From Streptomyces sp. RPA4-2 (lineage in GTDB: Bacteria; Actinomycetota; Actinomycetes; Streptomycetales; Streptomycetaceae): 64,000 nucleotides of DNA. Below, piece after piece: positions 5,876-60,879 of the stretch. How positions within the stretch are numbered: position 1 is the first letter of the stretch; each line of letters begins with the position of its first letter. The position numbers and the translations under genes are program-made. The stretch covers positions 3,286,001 to 3,350,000 of the forward strand of contig NZ_CP050975.2 of assembly GCF_012273515.2 (NCBI RefSeq), read 5' to 3'. The notes beneath the pieces are model-generated. The model was not told the origin of the DNA, did no database searches, and saw only the letters and a program-made list of their open reading frames with translations.

Positions 5876-5912
5876 GTGCGGCGGCCGTGCCTTCCTCGTC
5901 GGAATTCGTCGT

Positions 5913-5984
5913 ACCCAAAGAGGGCAGCCCGCAGGGCTGACCGGAGGGCCTCCCCAAGAGGCTGCCCCAAGAGGCTCTTTGGGT
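5913..5984. promoter_or_regulatory. Long-range inverted repeat in the mreC leader
   Basis: ACCCAAAGAG at 5913-5922 is repeated inverted as CTCTTTGGGT at 5975-5984. Between the arms are further GC-rich complementary pieces (GGGCAGCCC and CAAGAGGCTG-type repeats). The element lies between the mreB terminator-like hairpin and the mreC start, in the would-be 5' leader of mreC. It could be an operator, an attenuator or simply a structured leader; the sequence alone does not decide. Confidence 0.4.
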
Positions 5985-18888: not shown

Positions 18889-18965
18889 TGGTCGGGGTGG
18901 CGGGATTTGAACCCACGGCCTTCCGCTCCCAAAGCGGACGCGCTACCAAGCTGCGCCACACCCCG
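18889..18965 (-). tRNA. tRNA-Pro (TGG anticodon)
   Basis: The reverse complement folds as a full cloverleaf: acceptor CGGGGTG pairing with CACCCCG, D-arm GCGCAGCTTGGTAGCGC, anticodon stem around CTTTGGGAG with anticodon TGG, T-arm GTGGGTTCAAATCCCGC, and an encoded CCA end at 18889-18891. It lies just upstream of tig on the same strand. Confidence 0.95.
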
Positions 18966-19117: not shown

Positions 19118-19188
19118 GCGGGCGTAGCTCAATGGTAGAGCCCTAGTCTTCCAAACTAGCTACGCGGGTTCGATTCCCGTCGCCCGCT
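19118..19188 (+). tRNA. tRNA-Gly (TCC anticodon)
   Basis: A 71-nt cloverleaf: acceptor GCGGGCG with CGCCCGC, D-arm with AGCTCAATGGTAGAGC, anticodon loop CTTCCAA (anticodon TCC), and T-arm CGGGTTCGATTCCCG. No CCA is encoded. It is divergent from tRNA-Pro; the space between them holds no gene. Confidence 0.95.
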
Positions 19189-35129: not shown

Positions 35130-35192
35130 GCCGGCCGCGAGACGTCCTGCTCGTGATCGTCTTCTCACCCTTCACGCGGCAGGCGGAGAAAC

Positions 35193-35231
35193 GGGGAGCC
35201 CCCGCGCGGACCTGCCGCGCGGGGGCTCCCC
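35193..35231. terminator. Bidirectional terminator
   Basis: A perfect 17-bp stem (GGGGAGCCCCCGCGCGG and complement) with an ACCTG loop, between the convergent sodF and histidine-phosphatase genes. Confidence 0.85.
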
Positions 35232-53086: not shown

Positions 53087-55657
53087 GTGCCTGGCACAAA
53101 CCTGACCCGCGAAGAGGCGCAGCAGCGCGCGAAGCTGCTCACCGTTGACTCGTACGAGATCGATCTCGACCTCTCGGGCGCGCAGGAGGGCGGCACCTAC
53201 CGGTCCGTGACCACAGTGCGCTTCGATGTCTCCGAGAGCGGCGCGGAGTCCTTCATCGACCTGGTGGCCCCGACCGTTCACGAGGTGGTCCTCAACGGGG
53301 ACGCCCTCGCCCCCGCCGAAGTCTTCGAGGACTCGCGGATCACGCTGCCGGGCCTCCTGGAGGGACGCAACGTCCTGCGGGTCGTCGCGGACTGCGCGTA
53401 CACCAACACCGGCGAGGGTCTGCACCGGTTCGTCGACCCGGTCGACCAGCAGGCCTACCTGTACACCCAGTTCGAGGTCCCGGACGCCCGACGCGTCTTC
53501 GCGTCCTTCGAGCAGCCCGACCTGAAGGCCACCTTCCGGTTCACCGTGAAGGCGCCCTCCGGCTGGACCGTCATTTCCAACTCGCCGTCGCCCGAGCCCA
53601 AGGACGACACCTGGGCCTTCGAGCCGACGCCGAGGATCTCCACGTACATCACCGCGCTGATCGTCGGCCCGTACCACTCGGTGCACAGCGTGTACGAGAA
53701 GGACGGGCAGAGCGTGCCGCTCGGCATCTACTGCCGTCCCTCGCTCGCCGAGTTCCTCGACTCGGACGCGATCTTCGAGGTCACCCGGCAGGGCTTCGAG
53801 TGGTTCCAGGAGAAGTTCGACTTCGCGTACCCGTTCAAGAAGTACGACCAGCTCTTCGTGCCGGAGTTCAACGCGGGCGCGATGGAGAACGCGGGCGCGG
53901 TGACGATCCGGGACCAGTACGTGTTCCGGTCGAAGGTCACCGACGCCGCGTACGAGGTGCGCGCCGAGACGATCCTGCACGAGCTGGCCCACATGTGGTT
54001 CGGCGACCTCGTGACCATGGAGTGGTGGAACGACCTGTGGCTGAACGAGTCGTTCGCCACCTACACCTCCATCGCCTGCCAGGCCTACGCGCCGGACAGC
54101 CGCTGGCCGCACTCCTGGACCACCTTCGCGAACTCCATGAAGACGTGGGCGTACCGGCAGGACCAACTGCCCTCCACCCACCCGATCATGGCGGAGATCG
54201 GCGACCTGGACGACGTGCTCGTCAACTTCGACGGGATCACGTACGCGAAGGGGGCGAGCGTGCTGAAGCAGCTCGTCGCGTACGTCGGCATGGACGAGTT
54301 CTTCCGGGGCGTGCAGACCTACTTCAAGCGGCACGCGTACGGCAACACGCGCCTGTCCGACCTGCTGGGCGCGCTGGAGGAGACCTCCGGGCGCGACCTG
54401 AAGAACTGGTCGGAGAAGTGGCTGCGGACCGCCGGCATCAACGTCCTGCGCCCAGAGGTCGAGACGGACGCGGACGGGGTCATCACCTCCTTCGCGATCC
54501 GCCAGGAGGCCCCGGCGCTCCCGGCGGGCGCCAAGGGCGAGCCGACGCTCCGCCCCCACCGCATCGCGGTCGGCCTCTACAACCTCGACGCGAGCGGCAA
54601 GCTGGTGCGCGACGAGCGGATCGAGCTCGACGTCGACGGTGAGCTGACCGCCGTGCCCGAGCTGACCGGCAAGCGCCGTCCGGCCGTCTTCCTGCTCAAC
54701 GACGACGACCTGTCGTACGCCAAGGTCCGTCTCGACGAGGACTCGCTGGCCTTCGTGACGGAGCACCTCGGCGACTTCGAGTCCTCGCTGCCGCGCGCGC
54801 TGTGCTGGGCCTCCGCCTGGGACATGACCCGCGACGGGGAGCTCGCCACCCGCGACTACCTTTCCCTGGTGCTGTCCGGCATCGGCAAGGAGTCCGACAT
54901 CGGTGTCGTGCAGTCGCTGCAGCGGCAGCTCAAGCTGGCGATCGAGATGTACGCCGACCCCGCCACCCGCGAGGCGCTGCTGACCCGCTGGACCGAGGCG
55001 ACCCTCGCGCACCTGCGCGCGGCCGAGGCCGGCGGCGACCACCAGCTCGCCTGGGCGCGCGCCTTCGCGGACACCGCCCGCACGCCGGAGCAGCTGGACC
55101 TCCTGGAGGGTCTGCTGGAGGACCGGGAGACCATCGGGGGTCTCGCCGTCGACACCGAGCTGCGCTGGGCGTTCGTACAGCGGCTCGCGGCGGTCGGACG
55201 CTACGACGAGGCGGAGATCACGGCCGAGTACGAGCGAGACCGGACGGCGGCCGGTGAGCGGCACGCGGCCACCGCGCGGGCCGGCCGTCCCACCGCGGAG
55301 GCGAAGGAGGAGGCCTGGGTCTCGGTCATCGAGTCCGACAAGCTCCCCAACGCCGTGCAGGAGGCGGTGATCGGCGGCTTCGTGCAGACCGACCAGCGTG
55401 AGCTGCTCGCTCCGTACGCGGACCGGTTCTTCGCCGTGGTGAAGGACATCTGGGACGCCCGTTCGCACGAGATCGCCCAGCAGATCGCGATCGGCCTGTA
55501 CCCGTCGATCCAGGTCTCCGAGGAGACCCTCGCCAAGACGGACGCGTGGCTGGCCTCCGCCGAGCCCAACGCGGCACTGCGCCGCCTGATCTCGGAGTCC
55601 CGCGCCGGGATCGAGCGCGCGCTGAAGGCACAGGCGGCGGACGCGGCGGCCTCGTAG
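53087..55657 (+). CDS. pepN: Aminopeptidase N, M1 family (copy 2)
   Basis: An 856-residue M1 aminopeptidase with the exopeptidase motif GAMENAG and zinc motif H298-E-L-A-H302, third ligand Glu in LWLNESFATYTS. A C-terminal ERAP1-like helical domain completes it. The start is GTG 53087 with GAGGAG upstream (VPGTNLTREEAQQRAKLL). It is collinear over its whole length with the copy at 37440, and its motif is the canonical one, so this is likely the main housekeeping enzyme. Confidence 0.95.
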   Translation: MPGTNLTREEAQQRAKLLTVDSYEIDLDLSGAQEGGTYRSVTTVRFDVSESGAESFIDLVAPTVHEVVLNGDALAPAEVFEDSRITLPGLLEGRNVLRVVADCAYTNTGEGLHRFVDPVDQQAYLYTQFEVPDARRVFASFEQPDLKATFRFTVKAPSGWTVISNSPSPEPKDDTWAFEPTPRISTYITALIVGPYHSVHSVYEKDGQSVPLGIYCRPSLAEFLDSDAIFEVTRQGFEWFQEKFDFAYPFKKYDQLFVPEFNAGAMENAGAVTIRDQYVFRSKVTDAAYEVRAETILHELAHMWFGDLVTMEWWNDLWLNESFATYTSIACQAYAPDSRWPHSWTTFANSMKTWAYRQDQLPSTHPIMAEIGDLDDVLVNFDGITYAKGASVLKQLVAYVGMDEFFRGVQTYFKRHAYGNTRLSDLLGALEETSGRDLKNWSEKWLRTAGINVLRPEVETDADGVITSFAIRQEAPALPAGAKGEPTLRPHRIAVGLYNLDASGKLVRDERIELDVDGELTAVPELTGKRRPAVFLLNDDDLSYAKVRLDEDSLAFVTEHLGDFESSLPRALCWASAWDMTRDGELATRDYLSLVLSGIGKESDIGVVQSLQRQLKLAIEMYADPATREALLTRWTEATLAHLRAAEAGGDHQLAWARAFADTARTPEQLDLLEGLLEDRETIGGLAVDTELRWAFVQRLAAVGRYDEAEITAEYERDRTAAGERHAATARAGRPTAEAKEEAWVSVIESDKLPNAVQEAVIGGFVQTDQRELLAPYADRFFAVVKDIWDARSHEIAQQIAIGLYPSIQVSEETLAKTDAWLASAEPNAALRRLISESRAGIERALKAQAADAAAS

Positions 55658-55720: not shown

Positions 55721-55766
55721 CCGTTCGTGGGGCGCCCTCACCTCTCCGTTCGTGGGGCGCCCTCAC
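55720..55766. repeat. 22-bp direct repeat at the end of the M14 gene
   Basis: TCCGTTCGTGGGGCGCCCTCAC occurs at 55720-55741 and at 55745-55766, with 25-bp spacing. The second copy contains the stop codon of the carboxypeptidase gene (55763-55765). A GGGGCGCCC core gives each copy a small palindrome. Confidence 0.7.
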
Positions 55767-57031
55767 ATCAGGGCGCGGGCGAGCACGAGCATGGTGCGGG
55801 CCTGGAGCGCGGTCTGGTCGGCGACGGACACCCAGCGGGCGTCGAACGTGCGCTCCAGCTCGCGGGCCCACCCGTCCACGAGGGTGTCCAGCGCCGGTGC
55901 GCCGCCCAGGGCCCGGCTCATCATGGCCGCCGCGCGCAGCGGGATGCGGCGGGCCGCGATACCGAGCGAGACGGAGTTGCCGACGGTGGTGGCCAGTTCG
56001 GCAGCGCTCCAGGTGTCCACGACCCCGGACCCGATGTCCATGAGTTCACGGGCCGCCGTGAAATGGGCCAGCTCGTCAGTTGTTCCGGGCGGACGCGAAT
56101 CCAACTCGCCGACCACGGACTCCAGTTGCTTGACCCGGCCGAGCAGGATCTCGCTGACGTCGGCGAGTTCACGGCGCGGCTCCGCCACCGGCCGCGGATC
56201 GCCGACGCCCGCCACGCTCCAGAAGGGCGCCTCGACCACGGCCGAGACGGTGCCGTGGCGCATCGCGTGCAGCCAGGTGGCCCGCGAGACGAAGCCCGAG
56301 GGGTCCCGTTCCTCCGCCGGACTGCCGTCCGGCAGGACGAGCACACCCGGTCCCTCGACGAGCCACCCCATGCCGTCGAAGGGCCGGTGTTCCAGGGGAA
56401 TGCCCAGGTCCGCCGCGATCCGGCGGTAGGCGGCCGGCACTCCGGGCACCGCGCGGGTCAGTTGCAGGAAGGTTCCTCCTGCTTCGACGCCGTGCAACGA
56501 GAACTGCACGACGGGGCGCAGTTCGTCGATGAGCCCCAGCAGCGCCTCGGACTCCGGCATCGGTGCGCGCGGATCCCCCGCGACGGGCGGGAACTCGGGC
56601 TGGGCGGCGAAGGCGGGGCGGTAGAAGCGCCGGTAGTAGCTCCCGATGAGGGGCGGTGCGGCGGCGTCCGGGACACCGGAGGAATGCGCGGTCATCCAGC
56701 CGTCGGCGAGACGCGCACCGTCGGGATCGAGGCAGAGCAGGAAATGCCAGGTGCAGTCCAGCCCTCCGTCGCCGCTGCCCAGGACACTGGGATCACGGGC
56801 GAGCCACCGGGCGAACCGGAGTGAAGTGGCCCCGCCCACCGGCTCGTTGGCGTGCGCGCCGGCGACCGTGAGCAGCTGGCGCGGGCCGTGTCCGGCCGAC
56901 AGCAGCCACAGCGGGCGGCCGGCACGCGAGGTCCCGATGTCGCGCAGACGCAAGTCGCCGGGCCGCGCGGCCACCGTCGCACGAGCGCCTCGCAGCAACT
57001 CGTCCAGGGTGGGATACGGGGTTCCCCGCAT
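55763..57031 (-). CDS. M14-family zinc carboxypeptidase of the putative RiPP locus
   Basis: A 422-residue protein of the M14 fold. The zinc site is H60-x-x-E63 (VAGAHANEPVGG) and H180 (VQFSLHGVEAGG); the likely catalytic Glu is E267 (SAVVEAPFW). LDPDGARLADGWM also fits the family. There is no signal peptide, so it acts in the cytoplasm. A C-terminal helical part of about 150 residues follows the catalytic domain. Its ATG is 12 bp after the stop of the second small peptide gene, with no strong ribosome site of its own, so it is probably coupled. A role trimming the C-terminus of the small peptides is my inference. Confidence 0.88.
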   Translation of the reverse strand: MRGTPYPTLDELLRGARATVAARPGDLRLRDIGTSRAGRPLWLLSAGHGPRQLLTVAGAHANEPVGGATSLRFARWLARDPSVLGSGDGGLDCTWHFLLCLDPDGARLADGWMTAHSSGVPDAAAPPLIGSYYRRFYRPAFAAQPEFPPVAGDPRAPMPESEALLGLIDELRPVVQFSLHGVEAGGTFLQLTRAVPGVPAAYRRIAADLGIPLEHRPFDGMGWLVEGPGVLVLPDGSPAEERDPSGFVSRATWLHAMRHGTVSAVVEAPFWSVAGVGDPRPVAEPRRELADVSEILLGRVKQLESVVGELDSRPPGTTDELAHFTAARELMDIGSGVVDTWSAAELATTVGNSVSLGIAARRIPLRAAAMMSRALGGAPALDTLVDGWARELERTFDARWVSVADQTALQARTMLVLARALM

Positions 57032-57043
57032 GCCGGGATCCGG

Positions 57044-57118
57044 TCAGGTGCCGTTCGCGTTGCTGGCCCCGGTGGTCTCCTTCTTGTCCAGCGGACGGAT
57101 CACGATCCTGGCAGCCAT
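57044..57118 (-). CDS. Putative RiPP precursor peptide 2 (24 residues)
   Basis: ATG 57118 is preceded by GAAGGAGAGGGG. The peptide begins MAAR, then has the block IVIRPLDKKETTG identical in the neighbouring peptide, and ends ASNANGT. Two adjacent copies with an identical first part and a different last 7-8 residues look like a leader and a variable core. No signal peptide or membrane helix is present. The neighbours (E1-like enzyme, PqqD-type domains, two proteases) support a precursor role. It lies 12 bp before the M14 gene. A 7-bp hairpin (GCCCGGT-CCGT-ACCGGGC, 57161-57178) separates it from peptide 1. Confidence 0.75.
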   Translation of the reverse strand: MAARIVIRPLDKKETTGASNANGT

Positions 57119-57202
57119 GTGGTCCCCTCTCCTTCACAACCGACTGTGCGCAACAGCGGAGCCCGGTCCGTACCGGGCCGTCGAGCGGGTACGACGGGCT
57201 GG

Positions 57203-57280
57203 TCAGCCGCCGTTGCCCCCGCTGCTGTCACCCGTGGTCTCCTTCTTGTCCAAAGGACGGATCACGATCTTGGTGGGCAC
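57203..57280 (-). CDS. Putative RiPP precursor peptide 1 (25 residues)
   Basis: GTG 57280 follows GGGGGAGGAG with normal spacing. The peptide begins VPTK, continues with IVIRPLDKKETTG, the same 13 residues as peptide 2, and ends DSSGGNGG. The C-terminal Gly-Gly recalls substrates of E1-type adenylating enzymes such as ThiS and MoaD, but at 25 residues it cannot form their fold. It is the first gene of the leftward group and faces the E1-like gene across a 123-bp promoter region. The reading as a precursor is an inference from this context. Confidence 0.77.
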   Translation of the reverse strand: MPTKIVIRPLDKKETTGDSSGGNGG

Positions 57281-57403
57281 GCCAACTCCTCCCCCTCGCA
57301 AGGATGTTGCGTATCGCGGCGCAATCGCCGACCGCGTCTTGTCAAGGCTCGACTCGGGGCACCAGAGTGTCAAGGCATGTACCTGTAACGGGAAGGGGTC
57401 CTG
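57281..57403. promoter_or_regulatory. Divergent promoter region of the putative RiPP locus
   Basis: TGTCAAGGC occurs twice as a direct repeat, at 57340-57348 and 57368-57376, a 28-bp period. TTGTCA at the first copy could serve as a -35 box. The region is less GC-rich than its flanks. A shared regulator binding here could switch both arms together; no regulator gene is present in the locus. Confidence 0.5.
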
Positions 57404-58801
57404 GTGACGGTCACGGTCGAGACGCTCCGCCGGCCCCGGATCAAACCCGAGCACCGGGCCTACCGCACGATCGACGGCAACGTCCGCATCGGCAGCGTCA
57501 TCCACGGCATCGGCGCGGAGATAGCGGACCCGGAGGGCTGGGTCTGGACCCTGGTCGGGGCGATGGACGGAACGCGGGGGCCGGCCGAGGTCGTCGACGC
57601 GGTGCTGCGGGCTCATCCCGGACTCCCCGCTCTCACGGACGAGGACACCCGTCAGGCGATGGCGGATCTGCTCGACGCCGGGTTCGTGGAGGACGCCGGA
57701 GCGCCCGTGCCGGTGTCCGGGCGGGAGCGCGTCCGCTACAGCCGGGGCGTGCCGCTGCTGCGCTGGATGGATCTCGGTCCCCGGGCGAACCCGTGGGACG
57801 CCCAGCTCCGGCTGGGCAGCGCCCGGGTGCTGCTCATCGGCGTCGGCGGCACGGGAGGCCATGCCGCGCAGAGTCTGGTCGCCTCCGGAGTCGGCCACCT
57901 GCACTGCGTGGACCCGGACGTGGTCGAACTGTCGAACCTCAACCGCCAGCCCCTGTTCCGCGAGTCCGACCTCGGCCGTCCCAAGGTGGAGGCCGCGCTC
58001 GGCACGCTGCGGGCCCTGAACTCGGACGTGACGGTGACCGGGGAGCGGCGAGAGGTGCGGGGGCCGGAGGATCTGGCGGAGCTGGTGCGCTCCGGGGCGC
58101 CCGAGGTCCCGCGTCCGCTCCCGGTCCCGGTCCCGCGTCCGTTCCAGGTCCCGCATCCGCTCCCGGATCCGCCCGGGGCCCCGCGTCCGCCCGAGGCCCG
58201 GCGCGCCTCCGAGCCGTACGACCTGCTCGTTCTCGCCGCCGACCGCCCGGACGACATCCGGCGCTGGGCGAACCGTGTCTGTCTGGCCGCGGGCCTGCCG
58301 TGGGCCGACGCCGGATACCGGGGTCCCCTGGTGACGGCCGGGGTGCACGTGCCCGGCCGGGGAGCCTGCTGGGAGTGTCTGCGGGCCACGGAGGTCGCCC
58401 GCCGCGATCTGCGGCTGGCGCCGGGCCAGGACGAGGAGGCCGCCTCCCCGCATCTGCCGTGGAACCCCGCGAGCGCGGTCACCGCCGGTCTCTCCGGCGG
58501 GCTGCTCGCCCACGCGGCCCTGGCCCTGCTCACCGGCGTGCCCGCGCTCGACCCGGGTTTCCGGTTCGGGATGAACCTGATGCTGCCGGGGGATCCGGTG
58601 CTGGAGAGATCCCCGCGGCGGCCCGACTGCCCGGCCTGCGGCGACCGGCCCACCGGAGAACCCGCCAGAGAACCCACCGGGTCACAGACCGGAGGAGGGG
58701 CCGAGGGACCACCCGGAGAACGGGCCGGAGGCGGGACCGAACGGCGGGCCGGAGAGCGGGCCGGGGAACAGGCCGGAGAGCGGGCCGGAGGACAGCGGTG
58801 A
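57404..58801 (+). CDS. E1/ThiF-family adenylating enzyme with leader-binding-like N-terminus
   Basis: A 465-residue protein. Residues 20-110 (DGNVRIGSVIHGIGAEIA and a helical half ending MADLLDAGFVED) resemble a PqqD-like winged-helix RiPP recognition domain. The E1 domain follows: G146-V-G-G-T-G-G152, the CVDPDVVELSNLNRQPLF segment with the adenylation Arg, and a likely zinc site C322-x-x-C325 with C409-x-x-C412. A proline-rich insert with PVPRP-type repeats interrupts the domain near residue 240. The last 45 residues are a GERAG-type low-complexity tail. It should activate a carboxyl group as acyl-adenylate. GTG 57404 follows GGAAGGGG. Its end overlaps the next gene by 4 nt. Confidence 0.88.
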   Translation: MTVTVETLRRPRIKPEHRAYRTIDGNVRIGSVIHGIGAEIADPEGWVWTLVGAMDGTRGPAEVVDAVLRAHPGLPALTDEDTRQAMADLLDAGFVEDAGAPVPVSGRERVRYSRGVPLLRWMDLGPRANPWDAQLRLGSARVLLIGVGGTGGHAAQSLVASGVGHLHCVDPDVVELSNLNRQPLFRESDLGRPKVEAALGTLRALNSDVTVTGERREVRGPEDLAELVRSGAPEVPRPLPVPVPRPFQVPHPLPDPPGAPRPPEARRASEPYDLLVLAADRPDDIRRWANRVCLAAGLPWADAGYRGPLVTAGVHVPGRGACWECLRATEVARRDLRLAPGQDEEAASPHLPWNPASAVTAGLSGGLLAHAALALLTGVPALDPGFRFGMNLMLPGDPVLERSPRRPDCPACGDRPTGEPAREPTGSQTGGGAEGPPGERAGGGTERRAGERAGEQAGERAGGQR

Positions 58802-60036
58802 CCCGGTCCGCCGGGGAGCGTCACGGGTCCGTCGGCCCCACCGGCCCCCCGGCGTCCCCGGGCCCCACCCCCCACGTACGCCTCCACCGGCTCGACTCGC
58901 GCCCCGACGGGGACGAATGGATCGTCGGGCGCCTCGCGACCGGCCGGTTCGTCGCGCTGCCCGAGGTCGGCAAGCAGGCGCTGGACCTGCTCGGCCAGGG
59001 GCTGGGCGCCGCCGAGGTCGGGCGGCGGCTGCGGGAGGCGACCGGCGACGACATCGACGTACCCGATTTCGTCGAGGCGCTGGTGGACCTCGGGTTCGTG
59101 GCCGAGGTGGACGGACGGCCGACCGAGTCGCCGCCTCCGCCGAAGCCGACGTTCGCCCGGATCCGGCCCCGGCACGTGCGCTGGGTGCTGAGCCCTGTCG
59201 TCCCCGTCCTGGTCGGGCTGCTGATCGCGGTCGCCCTCCTCACCCGGCCGCCCGTTCCGCTCGGCTACCGCACCCTCCTGTGGAGCCCGCACGGCAGCGC
59301 GGTGATCGCGCTCGGCGCGGGCGTGGGCTGGACACTGCTGCTGCTCCACGAGTGCGCGCACCTGGTGGCCGCCCGCGCGACCGGCGTGCCCGGCCGGATG
59401 CGGCTGGGCACGCGGCTCCAGTTCCTGGTCATGCAGACGGACATCAGCGGCATCGAGATCGCCCCGCGCCGCCACCGTCTGACCGCCTACCTGGCCGGCA
59501 TCGCCACCAACCTGTCCGTCGCCTCGCTCGCCGCCCTCGCGGCGGGCACCACGGACGGCACGGCCCGCGGGGTCCTCGCCGCCGTCGCGCTGCTCGCCCT
59601 GCTCCCGCTGCCCTTCCAGCTCATGGTCTTCATGCGTACCGACCTGTACTTCGTCCTCCAGGACCTGACGCGCTGCCGCGATCTGTACGGGGACGGGGTG
59701 GCGTTCTCCAAGTACGCGGCCCGGCGCGTGCTGCGACGCGCGCCCGCCCCGGACCCCAGCCTCGATCTGCCCCTCCACGAACGGCGGGCCGTGCGGGTGT
59801 ACAGCGCCGTGCTCGTCGTGGGCACCACGCTGTGCCTCGCGTTCCTCGCGACCGTCACCCTGCCCGCGGACGTCATCCTGTTCGCCCGTGCGGTGACCCG
59901 GCTGGGCCCCGGCCACTCCGCGGCGCAGCGCCTCGACTCCGCGGCGGTCGTGGTCGCGCTCGGCGGGGTCCACCTGCTGTGGGCGCGCACCTGGTGGCGG
60001 GGGCGCGGAGTCAGTGCGGAACCATCCCGCCCGTGA
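58798..60036 (+). CDS. Membrane M50-type (site-2-like) protease with PqqD-like N-terminal domain
   Basis: A 412-residue protein. GTG 58798 overlaps the E1-like gene's stop (GTGA). Residues 35-100 (GRLATGRFVALPEVGKQALD through VEALVDLGFVAEVDG) look like a PqqD/RiPP-recognition winged helix. About six membrane helices follow. The zinc motif is H184-E-C-A-H188 in a helix, and the third-ligand Asp is probably in FMRTDLYFVLQD. M50 proteases cleave within or beside the membrane; here it could remove the leader or help export the product. A much longer frame upstream in the same phase overlaps the E1-like gene and is not real. It ends 26 bp inside the convergent SDR gene. Confidence 0.87.
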   Translation: MTRSAGERHGSVGPTGPPASPGPTPHVRLHRLDSRPDGDEWIVGRLATGRFVALPEVGKQALDLLGQGLGAAEVGRRLREATGDDIDVPDFVEALVDLGFVAEVDGRPTESPPPPKPTFARIRPRHVRWVLSPVVPVLVGLLIAVALLTRPPVPLGYRTLLWSPHGSAVIALGAGVGWTLLLLHECAHLVAARATGVPGRMRLGTRLQFLVMQTDISGIEIAPRRHRLTAYLAGIATNLSVASLAALAAGTTDGTARGVLAAVALLALLPLPFQLMVFMRTDLYFVLQDLTRCRDLYGDGVAFSKYAARRVLRRAPAPDPSLDLPLHERRAVRVYSAVLVVGTTLCLAFLATVTLPADVILFARAVTRLGPGHSAAQRLDSAAVVVALGGVHLLWARTWWRGRGVSAEPSRP

Positions 60037-60787
60037 CGTTGACGAACGTGCCGGTGATGCCGCCCGCCCGGTCGGAGGCGAGGAACGCGGCGGTGGCGGC
60101 GATCTCCGCGAGGGTGGGGTTGCGGCGGGTCATCCGCATCCCGGCGAGGTTCGCGAGCAGTCCCTGAAGGGCCGTCTCATCGAGGTCCATACGGCTGTCG
60201 ACCGCGGCGAGCTTCTCCCGGGTCAGCGTCTCGGGCACCCCGGCCGCCCACAGGCCCACGACCCGCAGTCCGCGCGGTCCCAGCTCCGTCGCCAGGTTCC
60301 GCACCAGCGTGTCGATCGCCGCGTCGGCAGGTCCCGTGCCGCCCATCATCGGACTGCCGTGCGCGGAGCCGCTGTTGAGCGTGAGCACCACGCCCGAGCC
60401 CGCCTCGGCCATGCGCCGGGCGGCGGCGCGGGCGGTCGTGAAGGTGGCGCGGATGCCGGTCTCGACAGGCCGTACGAAGTCCTCGACCGGCAGGTCGACC
60501 AGCGGAACTCCTTGCACGTCGCCCCGCGTGACCAGGTTGAACGAGATGTCGACGGCGTCCAGCGAGGCGATGTGTGCCTCGACCGCCGCCTCGTCCAGCG
60601 CGTCGAGCACCGCGGTCTCGGCGTGCCCCCCCGCCGCCACGATGTCCTTCGCCACCGCGTCCAGCGTCTCGCCCGTACGCCCCACCAGGTGCACGCGGGC
60701 ACCCTCCTGGGCGAAGGTGCGCGCGACGGCGCCGCCGATGGAACCGCCGGCGCCGTAGATGATCGCGGTCTTGTCGGTGAGCAGCAT
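60011..60787 (-). CDS. SDR-family protein with altered catalytic site
   Basis: A 258-residue short-chain dehydrogenase/reductase fold. The nucleotide-binding loop is IIYGAGGSIGGAVARTF, and the C-terminal ITGTFVNVTGGMVPH is typical. The Ser strand is VVLTLNSGSAHGSP, but where YxxxK should follow the sequence reads GGTGPADAAIDTLVRNLA. The catalytic Tyr and Lys are both missing, so it may not be an active oxidoreductase, or may use another mechanism as some atypical SDR proteins do. The ATG at 60787 has AGGAGAG upstream. Its 3' end overlaps the M50 gene by 26 bp; membership in that locus is uncertain. Confidence 0.88.
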   Translation of the reverse strand: MLLTDKTAIIYGAGGSIGGAVARTFAQEGARVHLVGRTGETLDAVAKDIVAAGGHAETAVLDALDEAAVEAHIASLDAVDISFNLVTRGDVQGVPLVDLPVEDFVRPVETGIRATFTTARAAARRMAEAGSGVVLTLNSGSAHGSPMMGGTGPADAAIDTLVRNLATELGPRGLRVVGLWAAGVPETLTREKLAAVDSRMDLDETALQGLLANLAGMRMTRRNPTLAEIAATAAFLASDRAGGITGTFVNVTGGMVPH

Positions 60788-60879
60788 GGTGATCTCTCCT
60801 GAAGGTGTACGGCCGTACGAGTGCGTCGTACGGGTCCGTCGAACGTGTCGGTCATGCAGACGTACGCGCCCGCCCGCAC

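Follow-up and report, generated by a model that had tools for sequence, protein, structure and literature searches.

A probable RiPP cassette with twin mini-precursors, an RRE-fused E1-like enzyme and a membrane M50 protease in Streptomyces sp. RPA4-2

The 64,000-nucleotide stretch of Streptomyces sp. RPA4-2 analysed here (the window; positions 3,286,001 to 3,350,000 of contig NZ_CP050975.2) belongs to a genome of 9.86 Mb assembled in a single contig (G000), and carries a compact five-gene cassette composed of two very short precursor peptide genes, an M14-type zinc carboxypeptidase gene, and the genes of an E1 (ThiF-like) adenylyltransferase and of a membrane M50-type protease, both of which have a predicted RiPP recognition element (RRE) at their N-terminus (Table 1). 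Judging by its sequence, the cassette almost certainly directs the synthesis of a ribosomally synthesized and post-translationally modified peptide (RiPP), since a conserved leader with variable tails is encoded beside an RRE-E1 that retains its ATP-site residues, and an RRE is also predicted on the M50 protein.

The translations of both precursor genes contain the exact common block IVIRPLDKKETTG, in agreement with an initial annotation of this DNA that had described two genes of 24-25 residues sharing such a block, and both genes are preceded by a ribosome-binding-site-like sequence (5 and 6 of 6 positions). The M14 gene starts 12 nt past the stop codon of precursor 2, and the E1 and M50 genes overlap by 4 nt (GTGA), both as originally described; this pair lies on the plus strand, in one direction, and is divergent to the precursors. 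A sigma-70 consensus scan of the intergenic region gave no match in the presumed promoter region. The cassette is flanked by an M1 aminopeptidase gene (pepN, 53087-55657) and a short-chain dehydrogenase gene (60014-60802, minus strand).

Table 1. Features of the cassette, with coordinates in the window.
Feature	Coordinates	Strand	Detail	Basis
Precursor 1 gene	57203..57280	-	25 aa, GTG start; (V/M)PTKIVIRPLDKKETTGDSSGGNGG = (M)PTK-IVIRPLDKKETT-GDSSGGNGG	translation
Conserved leader block, precursor 1	57233..57268	-	12 residues	low pN/pS, family comparison
Variable core, precursor 1	57206..57232	-	GDSSGGNGG	family comparison
Precursor 2 gene	57044..57118	-	24 aa, ATG start; MAARIVIRPLDKKETTGASNANGT = MAAR-IVIRPLDKKETT-GASNANGT	translation
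Conserved leader block, precursor 2	57071..57106	-	12 residues	family comparison
Variable core, precursor 2	57047..57070	-	GASNANGT	family comparison
M14-type zinc carboxypeptidase	55763..57031	-	422 aa	Pfam M14 4.7e-8
Divergent intergenic region, precursor 1 to E1	57281..57403	.	presumed promoters	
RRE-E1 (ThiF/PaaA/MccB-like adenylyltransferase)	57404..58801	+	465 aa	Pfam ThiF 5e-39
N-terminal RRE (PaaA-like_N) of E1	57428..57703	+	about residues 9-100	predicted fold
RRE-M50, membrane site-2-type metalloprotease	58798..60036	+	412 aa; start codon uncertain	
N-terminal RRE of M50 protein	58870..59115	+	residues 25-106	predicted fold
HExxH of M50	59347..59361	+	H184, E185, H188	invariant in 69/69 proteins

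The conservation of the cassette was assessed at 96 loci. A scan of genome contigs for E1 gave 39 loci, one of them spurious; the near set comprises 38 loci, with the window included and a locus cut by a contig end excluded. The 58 further loci, mostly better-scoring, include one Streptomyces locus that belongs to the near clade (L069); loci L151-L187, L189 and L190 (39 in number) were hand-picked, mostly from the top of the E1 match list, and form a non-random sample. Excluded before counting were L041 (spurious), L039 (E1 cut by the contig end), and L063-L065 and L113-L117 (other E1 types). Precursors were called by a single rule that combined the leader motif given below, a distance of 17-26 residues from leader to stop, and a start codon with a ribosome-site-like sequence.

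In 79 of the 96 loci, 44 of them among the 58 further loci, the E1 gene has a motif peptide no more than 2.5 kb away. The 38 near loci have a strict-motif peptide in 35 cases (a looser rule gained L030), M14 in 34 and M50 in 26. Across all loci, 88 motif peptides were counted in 472 kb close to E1 versus 2 in 506 kb farther off, and none was found under the same rule in 1.42 Mb of shuffled DNA. Because the motif recurs beside the same enzyme and is absent from the shuffled DNA, it is not a product of chance, and the shuffled control likewise rejects spurious small open reading frames (ORFs) as its source. Both farther-off peptides (L100 and L157) lie beyond a DUF6879-type gene of the same clusters and are read as second precursors. 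The RiPP-type locus proposed by the initial annotation is thus upheld by peptides that stand beside E1 at most loci; the pair occurring mostly without small peptides, which it had named as the finding that would speak against it, is not what was observed.

A close form of the cassette (66-100 percent identity) is present in 4 of 37 same-genus genomes, the host's own included, among 61 related genomes searched, and within one other actinobacterial family an alignment search with E1 found matches at E 1e-45 or better in 77 of 200 genomes. Four records of a plasmid collection, found later, all contain motif peptides (five in total), and three of the cassettes reside on plasmids of 241-342 kb. The gene tables of three plasmid records, themselves incomplete, omit the peptides; the fourth record (11.85 Mb) has hardly any annotation. 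In a protein search, many Streptomyces homologues were labelled just ThiF/MoeB-type or hypothetical; these were not used further.

The leader motif across the family reads [I/L/V]x[I/V][R/K]xL[D/E][K/R]xE[T/A]T. Among 68 distinct peptides, position 4 is R in 60 and K in 8, position 6 is L in 65, position 7 is D in 45 and E in 20, position 10 is E in 63, Q in 4 and D in 1, position 11 is T in 63 and A in 5, and position 12 is T in 64, A in 3 and P in 1; the search motif itself partly selects for this conservation, and leaves the tails untouched. The tails are hypervariable and 6-11 residues long, with 5 to 14 permitted by the search rule (for example GDSNANGT, VCSNSTGN, GLREGG, IYMPPPKL, AACPIHGDC and CEEEGCEGAGG). 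The ratio of nonsynonymous to synonymous polymorphism (pN/pS) is 0.24 for the leader versus 0.875 for the core, as calculated within a single length class (21 nucleotide sequences). A single feature of the tails is constrained, namely the C-terminal residue. Of 73 distinct peptides (the 68 plus the five plasmid peptides), 68 terminate in G, S, N, A or T; in the 30 most variable tails, small residues account for 25 of the 30 ends but for 56 of the 172 interior positions (p 2e-7, uncorrected for kinship). The window's precursors end in Thr or Gly, and Asn is last in 12 of the 68. No acidic residue is present in 31 of the 68 tails, and none of S, T, C, Y or K in 7. In an earlier, smaller set, Ser occupies core position 3 in 34 of 41 distinct peptides.

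Shorter or diverged peptides were also seen. The Saccharothrix locus L035 lacks the leader motif and has, just upstream of E1, a 23-residue ORF (5899-5970, MAMIEFHEVDDEEMTFSGTDSEA) with a strong ribosome-site-like sequence, which is possibly a diverged precursor. Some of the most distant E1 loci, such as L183 (3250-3306) and L184 (4053-4112), hold still shorter candidate precursors, MKIEVRKVEAVKATQFMT and MEIKVKKVESVKATQNPAT, with tails of few residues.

The best sequence match of E1 is PaaA, N-terminal domain included, and among known folds MccB fits the full-length protein best. The ATP-site residues R181, K194 and D280 are kept in 94, 95 and 95 of the 96 loci, respectively; four cysteines (C322/C325/C409/C412) presumably bind zinc, and a further one, C293, is kept in 73 loci. 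Against the model for thiazole/oxazole-modified microcins (TOMM), E1 scored 16.2 bits, under the 36.9-bit cut-off. By sequence and modelled fold, E1 is classed as a PaaA/MccB-type adenylyltransferase with a predicted N-terminal RRE. The PqqD/RRE-like N-termini that had been suggested for E1 and M50 were recovered on both proteins as predicted folds.

A second RRE-E1-like system was observed at L063 (6279-7625) and L064 (6033-7335), in genomes G023 and G007, where the peptides MSVAMTTRKASIAGQANEG / MTVAMKTRKASIAGSTVEG adjoin E1; it also has an M3 peptidase (L063) and a transporter-like protein, and the TRKA stretch of its peptides resembles the reported EnfA leader motif. At L113-L117, other E1-like genes mostly adjoin genes that appear to encode XRE regulators, DUF6879 and DUF397 proteins, and no leader-motif peptide was detected at these five loci.

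The M50 gene is present in 69 of the 96 loci. Its HExxH and D282, a further candidate zinc ligand, are invariant in all 69 proteins, and its first 25 residues are not conserved. The window protein matches Pfam M50 at 5.8e-4, under the cut-off; with the threshold relaxed to E 10, all 22 aligned members match this family, the best at 1.5e-6. The M14 residues H60, E63, H180 and E267 are invariant in 23 of 23 proteins. The M14 gene occurs in 35 of the 96 loci, all of one clade (34 of the 38 near loci versus 1 of the 58 others, namely L069). M14 was therefore rejected as a constant part of the cassette and is a lineage-specific accessory, an add-on of one clade. With M14 in 35 loci and M50 in 69, the two proteases are no obligatory pair, and the initial suggestion that they trim both ends of the peptide does not hold as a general rule. 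Of the 61 related genomes, 22 have M14 matches, and 18 of these 22 lack a close E1; seven such regions (L191-L197, five genomes) contained no motif peptide and no called gene matching E1. These M14 relatives form, in several genomes, a convergent pair beside genes resembling those of trehalose/maltose metabolism, as judged without a family search.

The cassette encodes a precursor with conserved leader and variable core, RREs are predicted on its enzymes, and one of these RREs is joined to an E1/ThiF fold that keeps the ATP-binding Arg, Lys and Asp. It is thus very probably a novel form, widespread among actinobacteria, of the known ThiF-like-adenylyltransferase RiPPs, which include microcin C, pantocin, enterofaecin and IndF. 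RRE-ThiF-like enzymes are described as binding the leader and adenylating a carboxylate, which an internal or an external nucleophile then captures (PMC12250964, PMC12150305). The verdict of the initial annotation that no known class fits was thus too strong, RRE-fused ThiF-like enzymes being, in the same two papers, a described RiPP enzyme group. The IndF authors report 27,400 candidate RRE-ThiF fusions (PMC12150305), so that the present group probably falls within that set. In the open-licence literature, supplements excluded, this leader, these precursors and the pairing of RRE-E1 with RRE-M50 were not found in print, and six leader strings had no occurrence in open-licence papers.

Like the PaaP/PaaA pair of pantocin A, the cassette combines a PaaA-like N-terminal domain with an E1 core, and a precursor marked by a leader motif, which is FXXLXXRI in PaaP according to PMC12250964. 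Unlike pantocin A, it has M50 and M14 proteases, and among its five genes neither the 2-oxoglutarate (2OG) oxygenase PaaB nor the exporter PaaC/EamA is found; the Glu-Glu-Asn core (EEN) is absent from all 68 distinct peptides. Microcin C (MccA/MccB) shares the RRE-E1 architecture and the tiny precursor, but here there is a real leader, no exporter within the cassette, and no Asn at the end of the window's precursors. The enterofaecin (EnfA/EnfB) and indolylamide (IndA/IndF) systems also pair an RRE-ThiF-like enzyme with a small precursor. In the present leader, the IR/VRK part is similar to (V/I)RKA, the motif reported for the EnfA leader; the IndA core starts with EDTT, a further likeness, and EnfB R167 and K180 (PMC12250964) are spaced by 13 residues, as are R181 and K194 of E1. 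Those systems are described from enterococci and streptococci and have cores ending in WWIVI or NWYFI, versus small polar or Gly ends here; an M16 peptidase and a transporter accompany IndF, where the present loci have M50/M14 and no shared transporter. Membrane M50-type proteases also occur in the RiPP clusters of EpeP, TglG/TmoG and daptide_HExxH (PMC10885120); the present M50 differs by its own predicted N-terminal RRE and its pairing with RRE-E1, and its match to the NCBIfam model daptide_HExxH is weak (1.3e-4; 21.2 bits versus a curated cut-off of 300). The five cassette genes include no lasso-type Asn-synthetase-like cyclase or transglutaminase-like B2 protein, and no YcaO, for which neither the neighbours nor whole genomes were searched.

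The best explanation, to which we assign a probability of roughly 55%, is as follows. The leader would dock on E1 by adding a strand to its RRE, and E1 would adenylate the C-terminal carboxylate of the tail; the acyl-adenylate would be captured within the same peptide as a macrolactone, lactam or imide, a step that would eliminate water and may, in the window's clade, use the conserved Ser at core position 3. The modified peptide would then pass to the RRE of the membrane M50 protease, where a cut near E-T-T would free a small product, and M14 would remove linear or residual peptide. Activation at the C-terminus is, taken by itself, more likely than not, as no other carboxylate is present in every tail (31 of 68 being acid-free) and the end residue is constrained while the other tail residues vary. 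The adenylation of a carboxylate, foreseen by the initial annotation, accords with the ATP-site residues; from the sequences, the C-terminus is judged a better candidate than the D/E of the conserved block, which had been offered as the other option. Intramolecular closure falls slightly short of an even chance. Tails without S/T/C/Y/K imply that a Ser lactone would serve at most part of the family; other capture candidates are a backbone amide (as reported for EnfB), the E-T-T threonine and the freed N-terminus.

Two other readings are unlikely, to a similar degree, and deserve the most weight after this one. E1 may adenylate the leader Glu side chain (K-x-E-T-T), giving a glutarimide or bicyclic unit as in pantocin, the tail being a follower cut by M14/M50. 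This stays a real rival because PaaA, the closest relative of E1, modifies Glu; GrcB is also described as Glu-using, E occupies leader position 10 in 63 of 68 peptides, R4 to E10 spans six residues as does R10 to the first modified Glu (E16) of PaaP (PMC12250964), and a carboxypeptidase such as M14 suits follower removal. For a follower, however, neither a small terminal residue nor core-like divergence is required, and the four Gln and one Asp variants at position 10 make the leader Glu doubtful as a universal target, the Gln-bearing loci (e.g. L066-L068) not being among those without R181, K194 or D280. Alternatively, an outside nucleophile may take the C-terminal acyl-adenylate, to give a microcin C-like peptide-nucleotide, a C-terminal amide or a conjugate. 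The closest structure to E1 being MccB, the amidation with free amines reported for EnfB (PMC12250964) and the 7 of 68 cores without S/T/C/Y/K are in line with such a capture, but MccB works on a C-terminal Asn (PMC12150305), last here in only 12 of 68, and no companion gene that might supply the nucleophile is widely common.

The remaining readings have much lower probability. That the peptides are mini sulfur carriers, whose small C-terminus is activated in MoeB/ThiF fashion to a thioacid serving either as sulfur donor or as the final product, is quite improbable, as the constant tail expected of a carrier contrasts with the hypervariable tails, the one further cysteine tested, C293, is missing from part of the loci, and no third enzyme gene is widely common nearby. 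A pearlin-like scaffold, with something built on the peptide C-terminus and released by M50 or M14 as carboxypeptidase, is a shade less probable still. The M50 proteases TglG and TmoG free C-terminal residues of scaffold peptides (PMC10885120), and M14 is present in 11 of 12 near loci without M50, while three Nocardia loci have M50 and no M14; a scaffold tail too should be constant, and no widely common elaborating enzyme was found beside the cassette by clustering of the neighbours, which were not family-searched. Ubiquitin-like conjugation or an anti-phage E1 system is scarcely credible: PADLOC E1-E2 models do align with a short part of the E1 core (80 residues at 2.3e-13 in the best case), but at E 0.01 M50 and M14 have no PADLOC match, no E2 or ubiquitin-like protein is among the five cassette genes, and the partner is a 24-residue peptide next to predicted RRE domains. 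A defence system was rejected accordingly, the PADLOC matches being to a partial E1 core alone, without the E1-E2 gene set.

That many actinobacteria encode this leader, with differing tails, next to an enzyme of this kind points to a large, chemically uncharacterised group of small modified peptides. Tentatively, these may form one actinobacterial class in which a fixed leader precedes hypervariable tails that are closed on their own C-terminus by RRE-E1 and released by an RRE-carrying intramembrane protease. If E1 indeed acts on the C-terminus of any small-ended tail, the natural substrate range of this peptide-activating enzyme, guided by the leader, would be very wide. As the tails vary by strain, some loci are plasmid-borne and a third of the distant neighbourhoods contain SARP-type regulators, the products are possibly strain-specific signals or weapons. 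The precursors are so short, and unlisted in the incomplete tables noted above, that genome mining easily misses such cassettes; a single leader motif combined with a single E1 profile suffices to find them.

Crude clustering of the called genes at 39 near loci revealed no additional gene group in more than eight; PepN was rejected as a cassette member, its group occurring in just 6 of the 39. In 40 distant neighbourhoods, likewise clustered and not family-searched, there was no widely recurring exporter. A large SARP-type regulator lies near E1 in 13 of the 40 (BTAD, NB-ARC and TPR domains in 3 of 3 members tested) and a DUF6879-type protein in 7 (one member checked); an MFS protein belongs to a group found in 3, and a group found in 4 contains an ABC ATPase-like protein, as judged by eye without a search. 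Elsewhere in the window, Rfam matches correspond to a sodF small RNA and two tRNAs (35142-35231; 18892-18965; 19118-19188).
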